Of a DNA stretch of 64,000 bases, positions 37,028-55,300 are shown piece after piece. The position numbers and the translations under genes were made by a program. The DNA lies in contig JBBELK010000213.1 in assembly GCA_037783545.1 (NCBI GenBank), forward strand, positions 1,612,001 to 1,676,000, in the 5' to 3' direction. The DNA comes from Henricia sp. BOLD:AAB3569 (taxonomy: Eukaryota; Echinodermata; Asteroidea; Spinulosida; Echinasteridae). The number at the start of each line of letters is the position of its first letter. Positions within the stretch are counted from its first letter, which is position 1. The notes under the pieces were generated by a model. It did not search any database, was not told the origin of the DNA, and saw only the letters and a list, made by a program, of their open reading frames with translations.

Positions 37028-37079
37028 GTCTACGACCATACCACATTGAATACACCGGTTCCCGTCTGATCACCGCAGT
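37028..37079 (+). pseudogene. 5S rRNA gene, 5' half (split by insertion)
   Basis: nt 1-52 of the 5S gene are normal, ending in CGCAGT, and then the sequence changes to the inserted element. The gene lies behind a TTTCC-type spacer and follows a G106T gene (36839). Most of the A box and the intermediate element (nt 53-72) are missing from both halves, so the locus cannot be a working 5S gene. Confidence 0.95.
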
Positions 37080-37083
37080 GATG

Positions 37084-37117
37084 CTACAGTCACACGGTCA
37101 AATACGTATGCTGCGGA
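37084..37117 (+). repeat. Left terminal inverted repeat
   Basis: This 34-bp end matches the reverse complement of 37441-37474 at 29 of 34 positions, with the outer CAGTCACACGGTCA perfect. It lies 4 bp inside the left junction with the 5S gene; GATG separates it from the 5S CAGT. Confidence 0.85.
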
Positions 37118-37407
37118 TTTTTTATATTCTTTATCCGCAGAAAATCACTTAAAAATTGCGCAGAAAAGTTAAATTAGCCATGAAATACGGATAATTGCGG
37201 ATGAATTACGGATAAATACGGACATTTACGCCTAAATAAAAAACAATTGCGGCAGGTGACATCTAATTTTTACGGATAGTTTACGGAGAGTTACGTATAT
37301 TACGGATAATTACGGATGCATTGCGGATTTTTTACGGATTTTTTATCCTGGCGGATGCTGCGGATTCGGCGGATTAATTACGGATCCATTACGGATAGAT
37401 ACGGATT

Positions 37408-37438
37408 CTGCGGATTTTTTACGGACAAAAATCCGCAG
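37408..37438. repeat. Perfect 12-bp hairpin inside the element
   Basis: CTGCGGATTTTT and AAAAATCCGCAG form a perfect 12-bp stem around a 7-base loop (TACGGAC). It sits just inside the right terminal repeat. A weaker partner with an 8-bp stem (CTGCGGAT/ATCCGCAG) and 14-base loop lies at 37111-37140, just inside the left end. Confidence 0.85.
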
Positions 37439-37440
37439 CG

Positions 37441-37474
37441 TCCGCAAGATCCGTATATGACCGTGTGACTGCAG
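37441..37474 (-). repeat. Right terminal inverted repeat
   Basis: Read on the - strand this matches the left end at 29 of 34 positions. The last three bases (CAG) are shared with the CAGT of the 5S gene, so the exact element end is uncertain by a few bases. Confidence 0.85.
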
Positions 37475-37518
37475 TACTTCGGTGGGAGACCACCTGGGAA
37501 TACCGAGTGTCGTAGGCA
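37472..37518 (+). pseudogene. 5S rRNA gene, 3' half (split by insertion)
   Basis: nt 73-119 resume directly after the element, starting with CAGTACTTCGG. The C box and the pol III terminator are intact. A short-type spacer follows and leads to the normal gene at 37586. Confidence 0.95.
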
Positions 37519-50272: not shown

Positions 50273-52223
50273 CTTTTGTTTTGTCGAGTAAAATATTGTT
50301 CTTCAGTAAACGTTTAAAATTACGCAAACCTGTTAAGCATTCGTATACGACCATACCACATTGAATACACCGGTTCCCATCTGATCACCGCAGTTAAGCA
50401 ACGTTGGGCTCGGTCAGTACTTCGGTGGGAGACCACCTGGGAATACCGAGTGTCGTAGGCACTTTTGTTTTTAGTAAAATATTGTTCTTCAGTAAACGTT
50501 TAAAATTACGCAAACCTGTTAAGCATTCGTCTACGACCATACCACATTGAATACACCGGTTCCCGTCTGATCACCGCAGTTAAGCAACGTTGGGCTCGGT
50601 CAGTACTTCGGTGGGAGACCACCTGGGAATACCGAGTGTCGTAGGCACTTTTGTTTTGTCGAGTAAAATATTGTTCTTCAGTAAACGTTTAAAATTACGC
50701 AAACCTGTTAAGCATTCGTCTACGACCATACCACATTGAATACACCGGTTCCCGTCTGATCACCGCAGTTAAGCAACGTTGGGCTCGGTCAGTACTTCGG
50801 TGGGAGACCACCTGGGAATACCGAGTGTCGTAGGCACTTTTGTTTTGTCGAGTAAAATATTGTTCTTCAGTAAACGTTTAAAATTACGCAAACCTGTTAA
50901 GCATTCGTCTATGACCATACCACATTGAATACACCGGTTCCCGTCTGATCACCGCAGTTAAGCAACGTTGGGCTCGGTCAGTACTTCGGTGGGAGACCAC
51001 CTGGGAATACCGAGTGTCGTAGGCACTTTTGTTTTTAGTAAAATATTGTTCTTCAGTAAACGTTTAAAATTACGCAAACCTGTTAAGCATTCGTCTACGA
51101 CCATACCACATTGAGTACACCGGTTCCCGTCTGATCACCGCAGTTAAGCAACGTTGGGCTCGGTCAGTACTTCGGTGGGAGACCACCTAGGAATACCGAG
51201 TGTCGTAGGCACTTTTGTTTTGTCGAGTAAAATATTGTTCTTCAGTAAACGTTTAAAATTACGCAAACCTGTTAAGCATTCGTCTACGACCATACCACAT
51301 TGAATACACCAGTTCCCGTCTGATCACCGCAGTTAAGCAACGTTGGGCTCGGTCAGTACTTCGGTGGGAGACCACCTGGGAATACCTAGTGTCGTAGGCA
51401 CTTTTGTTTTGTCGAGTAAAATATTGTTCTTCAGTAAACGTTTCCAATTACGCAAACCTGTTAAGCATTCGTCTACGACCATACCACATTGAATACACCG
51501 GTTCCCGTCTGATCACCGCAGTTAAGCAACGTTGGGCTCGGTCAGTACTTCGGTGGGAGACCACCTGGGAATACCGAGTGTCGTAGGCACTTTTGTTTTG
51601 TCGAGTAAAATATTGTTCTTCAGTAAACGTTTAAAATTACGCAAACCTGTTAAGCATTCGTCTACTACCATACCACATTGAATACACCGGTTCCCGTCTG
51701 ATCACCGCAGTTAAGCAACGTTGGGCTCGGTCAGTACTTCGGTGGGAGACCACCTGGGAATACCGAGTGTCGTAGGCACTTTTGTTTTGTCGAGTAAAAT
51801 ATTGTTCTTCAGTAAACGTTTCCAATTACGCAAACTTGTTAAGCATTCGTCTACGACCATACCACATTGAATACACCGGTTCCCGTCAGATCACCGCAGT
51901 TAAGCAACGTTGGGCTCGGTCAGTACTTCGGTGGGAGACCACCTGGGAATACCGAGTGTCGTAGGCACTTTTGTTTTGTCGAGTAAAATATTGTTCTTCA
52001 GTAAACGTTTAAAATTACGCAAACCTGTTAAGCATTCGTCTACGACCATACCACATTGAATACACCGGTTCCCATCTGATCACCGCAGTTAAGCAACGTT
52101 GGGCTCGGTCAGTACTTCGGTGGGAGACCACCTGGGAATACCGAGTGTCGTAGGCACTTTTGTTTTTAGTAAAATATTGTTCTTCAGTAAACGTTTAAAA
52201 TTACGCAAACCTGTTAAGCATTC

Positions 52224-52242
52224 GTCTACGACCATACCACAT
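52224..52242 (+). pseudogene. 5S gene remnant (first 18-19 nt) fused to a spacer
   Basis: The gene runs normally to CATACCACAT and then passes into TTTTAGTAAAATATT of a short spacer. The next gene starts only 79 bp on, at 52303, against 186 expected, so 107 bp were lost. A shared run of T at the joint fits a deletion or misaligned exchange at very short homology. Confidence 0.92.
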
Positions 52243-52302
52243 TTTTAGTAAAATATTGTTCTTCAGTAAACGTTTAAAATTACGCAAACCTGTTAAGCAT
52301 TC

Positions 52303-55300
52303 GTCTACGACCATACCACATTGAGTACACCGGTTCCCGTCTGATCACCGCAGTTAAGCAACGTTGGGCTCGGTCAGTACTTCGGTGGGAGACCACCTAG
52401 GAATACCGAGTGTCGTAGGCACTTTTGTTTTGTCGAGTAAAATATTGTTCTTCAGTAAACGTTTAAAATTACGCAAACCTGTTAAGCATTCGTCTACGAC
52501 CATACCACATTGAATACACCAGTTCCCGTCTGATCACCGCAGTTAAGCAACGTTGGGCTCGGTCAGTACTTCGGTGGGAGACCACCTGGGAATACCTAGT
52601 GTCGTAGGCACTTTTGTTTTGTCGAGTAAAATATTGTTCTTCAGTAAACGTTTCCAATTACGCAAACCTGTTAAGCATTCGTCTACGACCATACCACATT
52701 GAATACACCGGTTCCCGTCTGATCACCGCAGTTAAGCAACGTTGGGCTCGGTCAGTACTTCGGTGGGAGACCACCTGGGAATACCGAGTGTCGTAGGCAC
52801 TTTTGTTTTGTCGAGTAAAATATTGTTCTTCAGTAAACGTTTAAAATTACGCAAACCTGTTTAGCATTCGTCTACGACCATACCACATTGAATACACCGG
52901 TTCCCGTCTGATCACCGCAGTTAAGCAACGTTGGGCTCGGTCAGTACTTCGGTGGGAGACCACCTGGGAATACCGAGTGTCGTAGGCACTTTTGTTTTGT
53001 CGAGTAAAATATTGTTCTTCAGTAAACGTTTCCAATTACGCAAACTTGTTAAGCATTCGTCTACGACCATACCACATTGAATACACCGGTTCCCGTCAGA
53101 TCACCGCAGTTAAGCAACGTTGGGCTCGGTCAGTACTTCGGTGGGAGACCACCTGGGAATACCGAGTGTCGTAGGCACTTTTGTTTTGTCGAGTAAAATA
53201 TTGTTCTTCAGTAAACGTTTAAAATTACGCAAACCTGTTAAGCATTCGTCTACGACCATACCACATTGAATACACCGGTTCCCATCTGATCACCGCAGTT
53301 AAGCAACGTTGGGCTCGGTCAGTACTTCGGTGGGAGACCACCTGGGAATACCGAGTGTCGTAGGCACTTTTGTTTTTAGTAAAATATTGTTCTTCAGTAA
53401 ACGTTTAAAATTACGCAAACCTGTTAAGCATTCGTCTACGACCATACCACATTGAATACACCGGTTCCCGTCTGATCACCGCAGTTAAGCAACGTTGGGC
53501 TCGGTCAGTACTTCGGTGGGAGACCACCTGGGAATACCGAGTGTCGTAGGCACTTTTGTTTTGTCGAGTAAAATATTGTTCTTCAGTAAACGTTTAAAAT
53601 TACGCAAACCTGTTAAGCATTCGTCTACGACCATACCACATTGAATACACCGGTTCCCGTCTGATCACCGCAGTTAAGCAACGTTGGGCTCGGTCAGTAC
53701 TTCGGTGGGAGACCACCTGGGAATACCGAGTGTCGTAGGCACTTTTGTTTTGTCGAGTAAAATATTGTTCTTCAGTAAACGTTTAAAATTACGCAAACCT
53801 GTTAAGCATTCGTCTACGACCATACCACATTGAATACACCGGTTCCCGTCTGATCACCGCAGTTAAGCAACGTTGGGCTCGGTCAGTACTTCGGTGGGAG
53901 ACCACCTGGGAATACCGAGTGTCGTAGGCACTTTTGTTTTGTCGAGTAAAATATTGTTCTTCAGTAAACGTTTAAAATTACGCAAACCTGTTAAGCATTC
54001 GTCTACGACCATACCACATTGAATACACCGGTTCCCGTCTGATCACCGCAGTTAAGCAACGTTGGGCTCGGTCAGTACTTCGGTGGGAGACCACCTGGGA
54101 ATACCTAGTGTCGTAGGCACTTTTGTTTTGTCGAGTAAAATATTGTTCTTCAGTAAACGTTTCCAATTACGCAAACCTGTTAAGCATTCGTCTACGACCA
54201 TACCACATTGAATACACCGGTTCCCGTCTGATCACCGCAGTTAAGCAACGTTGGGCTCGGTCAGTACTTCGGTGGGAGACCACCTGGGAATACCGAGTGT
54301 CGTAGGCACTTTTGTTTTGTCGAGTAAAATATTGTTCTTCAGTAAACGTTTAAAATTACGCAAACCTGTTAAGCATTCGTCTACGACCATACCACATTGA
54401 ATACACCGGTTCCCGTCTGATCACCGCAGTTAAGCAACGTTGGGCTCGGTCAGTACTTCGGTGGGAGACCACCTGGGAATACCGAGTGTCGTAGGCACTT
54501 TTGTTTTGTCGAGTAAAATATTGTTCTTCAGTAAACGTTTAAAATTACGCAAACCTGTTAAGCATTCGTCTACGACCATACCACATTGAATACACCGGTT
54601 CCCGTCTGATCACCGCAGTTAAGCAACGTTGGGCTCGGTCAGTACTTCGGTGGGAGACCACCTTGGAATACCGAGTGTCGTAGGCACTTTTGTTTTGTCG
54701 AGTAAAATATTGTTCTTCAGTAAACGTTTAAAATTACGCAAACCTGTTAAGCATTCGTCTACGACCATACCACATTGAATACACCGGTTCCCATCTGATC
54801 ACCGCAGTTAAGCAACGTTGGGCTCGGTCAGTACTTCGGTGGGAGACCACCTGGGAATACCGAGTGTCGTAGGCACTTTTGTTTTTAGTAAAATATTGTT
54901 CTTCAGTAAACGTTTAAAATTACGCAAACCTGTTTAGCATTCGTCTACGACCATACCACATTGAATACACCGGTTCCCGTCTGATCACCGCAGTTAAGCA
55001 ACGTTGGGCTCGGTCAGTACTTCGGTGGGAGACCACCTGGGAATACCGAGTGTCGTAGGCACTTTTGTTTTTAGTAAAATATTGTTCTTCAGTAAACGTT
55101 TAAAATTACGCAAACCTGTTAAGCATTCGTCTACGACCATACCACATTGAGTACACCGGTTCCCGTCTGATCACCGCAGTTAAGCAACGTTGGGCTCGGT
55201 CAGTACTTCGGTGTGAGACCACCTAGGAATACCGAGTGTCGTAGGCACTTTTGTTTTGTCGAGTAAAATATTGTTCTTCAGTAAACGTTTAAAATTACGC

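Follow-up and report, generated by a model that had tools for sequence, protein, structure and literature searches.

An inverted-repeat element interrupts one 5S rRNA gene in the window, the 64-kb stretch of DNA that we analysed as a whole, and our data assign it to a known class of mobile elements, of which it is an ordinary example that lies in 5S DNA by chance. The reading that best accounts for the data, to which we assign a probability of roughly 0.9, is that the element is a MITE (a non-autonomous miniature inverted-repeat element) of a recently active PIF/Harbinger-type family, that it entered a TTA of the 5S gene by chance and that it later lost its right end through a 26-bp deletion. 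The transposase of a related candidate autonomous element with matching ends would bind the ends and sub-terminal repeats of the MITE, cut it out and insert it at a 3-bp TWA target. The target would here have been the TTA at positions 52–54 of one 5S gene, and the subsequent deletion would have taken 18 bp of 5S sequence together with the element's right end and the target copy beside it. With its right terminus deleted the copy in the window is left without one end, and it has presumably lost its mobility.

The window consists of one tandem 5S rRNA array with units that are mostly 189 or 186 bp long. Rows of 5S-unit tandem repeats span it from end to end except at the element, which a preliminary description of the sequence had already taken to be the only non-5S DNA in the 64 kb. 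A search of the window with Rfam gave 336 matches, and all of the 150 matches listed are 5S. By script we located 331 unit starts, and all 333 script-matched units read TTAAG at the insertion place, so that the array itself provides the empty 5S site. Among the units found in the window (1–64000) there are 71 distinct 119-nt sequences, the commonest of which occurs 156 times. Three of the unit-start spacings are 180 bp; at 52163–52322, where a 79-bp spacer stretch is duplicated exactly in tandem, the spacing is 265 bp.

At the interrupted gene the 5S sequence runs to position 51, is followed by TGA in place of TTA and then by the element, and resumes at position 73 (Table 1). This confirms that an inverted-repeat element lies within a 5S gene, as first described. 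The missing positions 55–72 would hold box A and the IE of the internal promoter, which we take to lie at their usual places; with that proviso the earlier statement that the internal promoter is hit is correct, and the interrupted copy is very probably non-functional.

Table 1 Features of the interrupted 5S gene and the inserted element (window coordinates).
Feature	Position	Strand
5' part of the interrupted 5S rRNA gene (5S positions 1–51)	37028..37078	+
Left 3-bp target copy, TGA (all 333 script-matched units have TTA here)	37079..37081	+
PIF/Harbinger-type MITE, 390 bp; left end TGCTACAGTCACACGGTC; right end without its last 5 bp (TAGCA)	37082..37471	+
Left inverted-repeat arm	37084..37117	+
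Sub-terminal palindrome CTGCGGAT..ATCCGCAG, within a stretch of which some other copies have tandem repeats (66-bp unit) at their left end	37111..37140	+
Cluster of ACGGAT/GCGGAT motifs, probably bound by the transposase; the candidate autonomous element has them densely in its non-coding ends as well	37180..37430	+
Right inverted-repeat arm, shortened by the 26-bp deletion	37441..37471	+
3' part of the 5S gene (5S positions 73–119; 55–72 missing)	37472..37518	+

The element had been placed at 37080–37471 (392 bp). Its presence at the site stands, but its limits are corrected to 37082–37471, with TGA at 37079–37081 as a target copy. Its arms of 34 nt (37084–37117 and 37441–37474) are complementary at 29 of 34 positions (85%), which reproduces the earlier count, but the last 3 nt of the right arm so defined belong to the 5S gene (the CAG of CAGTACTTCGG). 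The register of the arms found by script matches at 27 of 34 positions, whereas no more than 21 matched in any of 2000 shuffled versions of the element. As had been stated, the element has no coding capacity: it contains no long coding frame, and the longest stop-free frame wholly inside it is 66 codons.

At the right junction GTGTGACTG is joined straight to CAGTACTTCGG. By comparison with an intact right end, 26 bp are lost without clear microhomology, namely the terminal TAGCA of the element, the TTA that would follow it and 18 bp of the 5S gene. Since no right target copy is left in the window, a duplication cannot be shown at the 5S site itself. A 22-bp pattern of the left junction, compatible with either orientation at the site, has one match in the genome, and this match is exact; with up to 3 mismatches allowed, the reversed control pattern gave 29 matches.

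Relatives of the element are present elsewhere in the 740.7-Mb assembly. We scored 40 candidate places, one of which is the element itself, and 32 of the 39 others are nearly full-length with 82–95% identity. Ten rows of an alignment of 33 relatives were low (nine at 53–56%, probably elements taken in the wrong orientation, and one at 85%) and only the high-identity rows were used; the closest relative, L009, is 98.9% identical over 376 ungapped positions. The 17-bp end motif ATGCTACAGTCACACGG gave 168 genome matches at up to 1 mismatch while the reversed control gave 2. Because an intact copy contributes two ends, and tandem repetition of the end adds more in some copies, the number of insertions must be well below 168. 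Left and right ends usually differ just inside the common 20 bp, where GTCA is followed by AA on the left (59 exact) and by TA on the right (61 exact). Related MITEs with the same ends range from 279 to 887 bp. Some copies begin with two to four tandem repeats of the left 66 bp; tandem repetition of this stretch was seen in L014, L016, L019, L024, L031, L032, L039 and L041, and in the copies whose ends were read the next 66-bp unit comes after AAAATA. These elements are MITEs in that they are short, non-coding and present in many copies, and have their ends in common with a full-length element.

That full-length element emerged from a genome search for the DDE_Tnp_4 domain (PF13359), which revealed a cluster of near-equal-score matches adjoining the end motif. 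The candidate autonomous element (L066:723-2834, with flanking triplets) is ~2.1 kb long and has the TIRs TGGCACAGTCACACGG / CCGTGTGACTGTAGCA. Its 423-codon frame matches DDE_Tnp_4 with 107.6 bits (cut-off 24.8) over profile positions 1–158 of 158, and the protein also matches Plant_tran, more weakly; a comparison of the transposase with solved structures gave no match at E up to 0.1. The autonomous set was drawn from 24 places, of which C258 (flanks as C242), C118, C921, C1038 (no end at the predicted place) and C60b (one end) were dropped. In all 19 copies kept, an open frame of 423–424 codons surrounds the DDE_Tnp_4 match. When the 18 other copies are compared with L066, 3 of 2,974 terminal bases are substituted (3 of 3,164 when L066 is included), from which it follows that the family moved recently. 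Longer versions (L109–L111) measure 2.3–3.1 kb with frames of 475–501 codons; L112 is 95.8% identical to L066 but has a broken frame, and L113 has one end. Adding L109–L112 later gave a set of 23 copies (the L109 triplets were read by eye).

No second ORF of the Myb/SANT type was found in L066, which has no other frame above 150 codons. Pfam searches with four other frames of L066, L109 and L110 and with the 113-codon frame of L110 returned nothing, and in L112 and L113 no such ORF was found as judged by frame length only. The element may depend on a Myb protein encoded outside it, or do without one. The MITE and the candidate autonomous elements have in common the terminal 16 bp (two positions at one end excepted), the target and dense CGGAT/CGTAA-type motifs. 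These motifs number 40 in the MITE, compared with 1.7 in shuffles, and in L066 they number 52 (2.5 in shuffles) and 28 (1.7) in the two non-coding ends and 14 (8.0) in the coding part. The common ends, target and motifs point to the DDE_Tnp_4 transposase of the candidate autonomous element as the enzyme that would move the MITE. The genome search as a whole yielded 151 DDE_Tnp_4 matches from 606 first-look candidates; the 150 that were scored form several groups by score and frame length, with frames of up to 555 codons, and the genome probably contains several Harbinger-like families. We rejected L068 (C95:1296700-1303000; 5.8 kb between ends) as an autonomous copy, as it is a MITE split by another element. 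The MITE is of the 700-bp type, and the ~5.2-kb insert carries an 800-codon reverse-transcriptase frame and a 358-codon tyrosine-recombinase frame and is DIRS-like.

The 5S sequence in the window presumably comes from an animal, to judge by its type, whereas the host of mPing, a MITE with which the present one can be compared, is rice. According to the available text of PMC4482050, the groups of the PHIS superfamily are defined by their TSD, that of PIF/Harbinger being a TWA target duplication, and a second, Myb/SANT ORF occurs in most autonomous candidates of PIF/Harbinger and is hence usual rather than defining. Like PIF/Harbinger so described, the family studied here has a TWA duplication (with frequent central-base mismatch), a DDE transposase (DDE_Tnp_4) and short TIRs; unlike it, the copies examined have no Myb/SANT ORF, the TIRs start TGCTACAG/TGGCACAG and the central base of the target copies often differs (PMC4482050). 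The same text describes the PHIS relatives Spy and ISL2EU as having related DDE transposases, and Spy as having a single ORF, as here. Spy, however, makes no TSD and uses an AAATTT target and ISL2EU has an AT TSD (PMC4482050), whereas the present family has TWA and shows neither feature of Spy. Resemblance to mPing, a Tourist-like rice MITE moved by PIF/Pong-like transposases, extends to the small size, the separate autonomous partner and the 3-bp TTA/TAA target; in the available account of mPing, non-matching target copies were engineered, whereas in the present family they are natural (PMC4561436).

To define the target we used 39 independent MITE loci, kept from 53 that were fetched (L009–L061) after removal of 5 without two ends, 6 same-site duplicates and 3 with damaged ends. 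Insertions have the structure TWA, TGCTACAG..CTGTAGCA, TWA. The flanking triplets are identical at 24 of the 39 MITE loci (14 TAA, 9 TTA, 1 TCA) and in 15 of 19 candidate autonomous copies, or 16 of 23 with L109–L112; the 24 and the 15 together comprise 38 loci with TAA or TTA and one with TCA. At 7 of 7 loci with usable empty sites the target is 3 bp. The preliminary description had looked to many copies with a constant target duplication as a sign of a DNA transposon family, and this is largely what we found: the 168 end matches, the 3-bp TWA and the candidate autonomous partner agree with it, but at the MITE loci the two triplets are identical in the 24 cases only. A Spy- or Helitron-like reading without TSD was rejected, since the triplets match after a one-base shift of the boundary and the empty sites show a 3-bp target. 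A palindromic target extending beyond TWA was likewise rejected; the pooled flanks show only a mild preference, mainly for C or T two bases outside the triplet.

Four observations count against our preferred reading, namely the lack of a Myb/SANT ORF in the candidate autonomous elements examined, the loss of the right target copy in the window, the left TGA instead of TTA, and the non-identical triplets at 15 of 39 MITE loci and in 7 of 23 candidate autonomous copies. The left TGA, together with the 26-bp loss without clear microhomology on the right, would fit the pasting of a MITE fragment into a broken 5S gene by double-strand-break repair, with no transposition. We consider this improbable, as the left end is exactly the family terminus and lies at a 5S TTA, which is the family target, while L011 is a further site with a left TGA and a right TTA, and intact insertions commonly show a changed central base.

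A special link of the family to 5S genes, which the preliminary description had raised, is unsupported. The flanks of the insertions were scanned for 5S, over only 60–100 bp in many autonomous copies, and the 58 other independent insertion sites read are all outside 5S; the sole blast match was 19 bp long with an E of 0.43. A 44-bp 5S pattern has 40,177 genome matches at up to 3 mismatches (control 0). Multiplied by 189 bp these amount to ~7.6 Mb, or ~1.0% of the assembly, and a single 5S hit is therefore at chance level, with 0.6 hits expected among 59 insertions. Among the sites read there is thus no sign of 5S targeting by the family and its landing looks random; the insertion in the window simply illustrates how a MITE can enter a very large set of 5S genes by chance. 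Spacings near 189–196 bp recur genome-wide among the 5S matches listed, for example on C29 and C118.

A transposon that targets 5S or pol III genes and finds a safe landing in multicopy RNA genes would have its model in Dada, whose elements, in the available account (PMC3706591), target multicopy small-RNA genes, and the window copy does lie inside such a gene. Dada differs from the present family, however, in its 6–7 bp TSD, its transposase distantly like those of MuDR, hAT, P and Kolobok and its family-specific RNA-gene targets (PMC3706591). With a 3-bp target, a DDE_Tnp_4 transposase, a 5S junction pattern that has a single genome match and the absence of 5S from the other sites read in a genome of which 5S makes up ~1%, such targeting is very improbable here. 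We give as little credence to an assembly artefact, for although 5S arrays are hard to assemble and the junctions are known here from the assembly alone, both junctions lie in a single 5S unit and combine a family-specific end and target with a small deletion, which would be unexpected for a mis-join.

The two target copies frequently differ at their central base. They do so in 4 of 19 candidate autonomous copies (7 of 23 with L109–L112), and the probability of at least 4 mismatches in 19 at the substitution rate of the element ends is about 5e-8. At the MITE loci the triplets differ in 15 of 39 cases, 12 of them at the centre only, one of which (L041) is a damaged end. To identify empty sites we joined the flanks of 19 non-matching loci (13 + 6) and compared all of them with the loci already read; for twelve (C237, C788, C1075, C408, C423b, C366, C1095, L011, L053, L041, L046 and L042) we also searched the genome, and for L009, L010, L017, L021, L023, L026 and L034 the comparison was among read loci only. 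Usable empty sites, which are paralogous repeats and not alleles, were obtained for seven loci (Table 2). L041 was dropped for its damaged left end, L023 and L042 matched too poorly, and L021 was omitted as ambiguous, with one 82% match that reads TAA and has gaps nearby, although it agrees with the pattern. No clean empty site for C1075, C408, C366 or L011 was seen among the 40 candidates scored per search. The C1095 site is a tandem repeat (matches ~295 bp apart) found on many contigs at up to 100% identity (C988, C1426, C586 and others).

Table 2 Central-base changes at loci with usable empty sites.
Locus	Empty sites	Changed copy
C237	TAA in 9/10; the tenth (L120) lacks a base at the site	right, to TTA
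C788	TAA in 2/2	right, to TTA
C423b	TTA in 19/19	left, to TAA
L009	TTA in 2/2 (88% and 80% identity)	left, to TAA
C1095	TTA, one copy read; many more listed, up to 100%	right, to TCA
L053	TAA, one copy read	right, to TCA
L046	TTA, one copy read	right, to TGA

At all seven loci the target is 3 bp long, one side is faithful and the central base of the other side is changed. The change of TTA to TGA on the left of the window element is an eighth case, in which the array serves as the empty site and the right copy is gone. The one part of our results that might surprise a specialist is the natural occurrence of central-base mismatches together with empty sites that can be read. Our literature search, which covered the available parts of the texts, found no description of natural central-base TSD mismatches in PIF/Harbinger, although one may exist elsewhere.

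In the mPing work, in the text available, a mechanism was inferred from the excision of constructs whose target copies had been engineered: the transposase is proposed to make cuts in the target copies that leave 3-nt 5' overhangs, and this accounts for the precise repair of the donor site (PMC4561436). A 5' staggered cut of this kind should leave a matching overhang on the excised element too. We tentatively propose, at somewhat less than even odds, that the excised element carries the 3-nt TWA 5' overhangs of its donor into the new site, where they could be sealed in instead of being replaced by fill-in. Because every TWA target can pair with the T and A at the outside of the overhang, only the central base could then mismatch, as is observed. 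Insertions would in that case keep, on one side, a one-base record of the previous site, the G of the TGA beside the 5S insertion would be a donor-site relic, and the mismatches would constitute genomic evidence for TSD-overhang transfer in PIF/Harbinger transposition. Alternatively, the gap at the new site may be misfilled, with a bias towards purines. In 6 of the 7 empty-site cases (the exception being L046), and in the window too, the new base is a purine when the strand is read from the changed end inwards, a bias better explained by misfilling than by overhang carry-over unless TAA already stood at both ends in most donors. The present data are compatible with either overhang carry-over or faulty gap filling. 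The family offers, within one genome, candidate autonomous copies that are almost identical, MITEs that match them and empty sites that can be read, and it lets one ask how PIF/Harbinger transposases cut and how 3-nt gaps are filled. Insertions with TAA/TTA outnumber those with TTA/TAA by 13 to 1 (sign test, 0.002), a difference that was noticed afterwards and was not a planned test.
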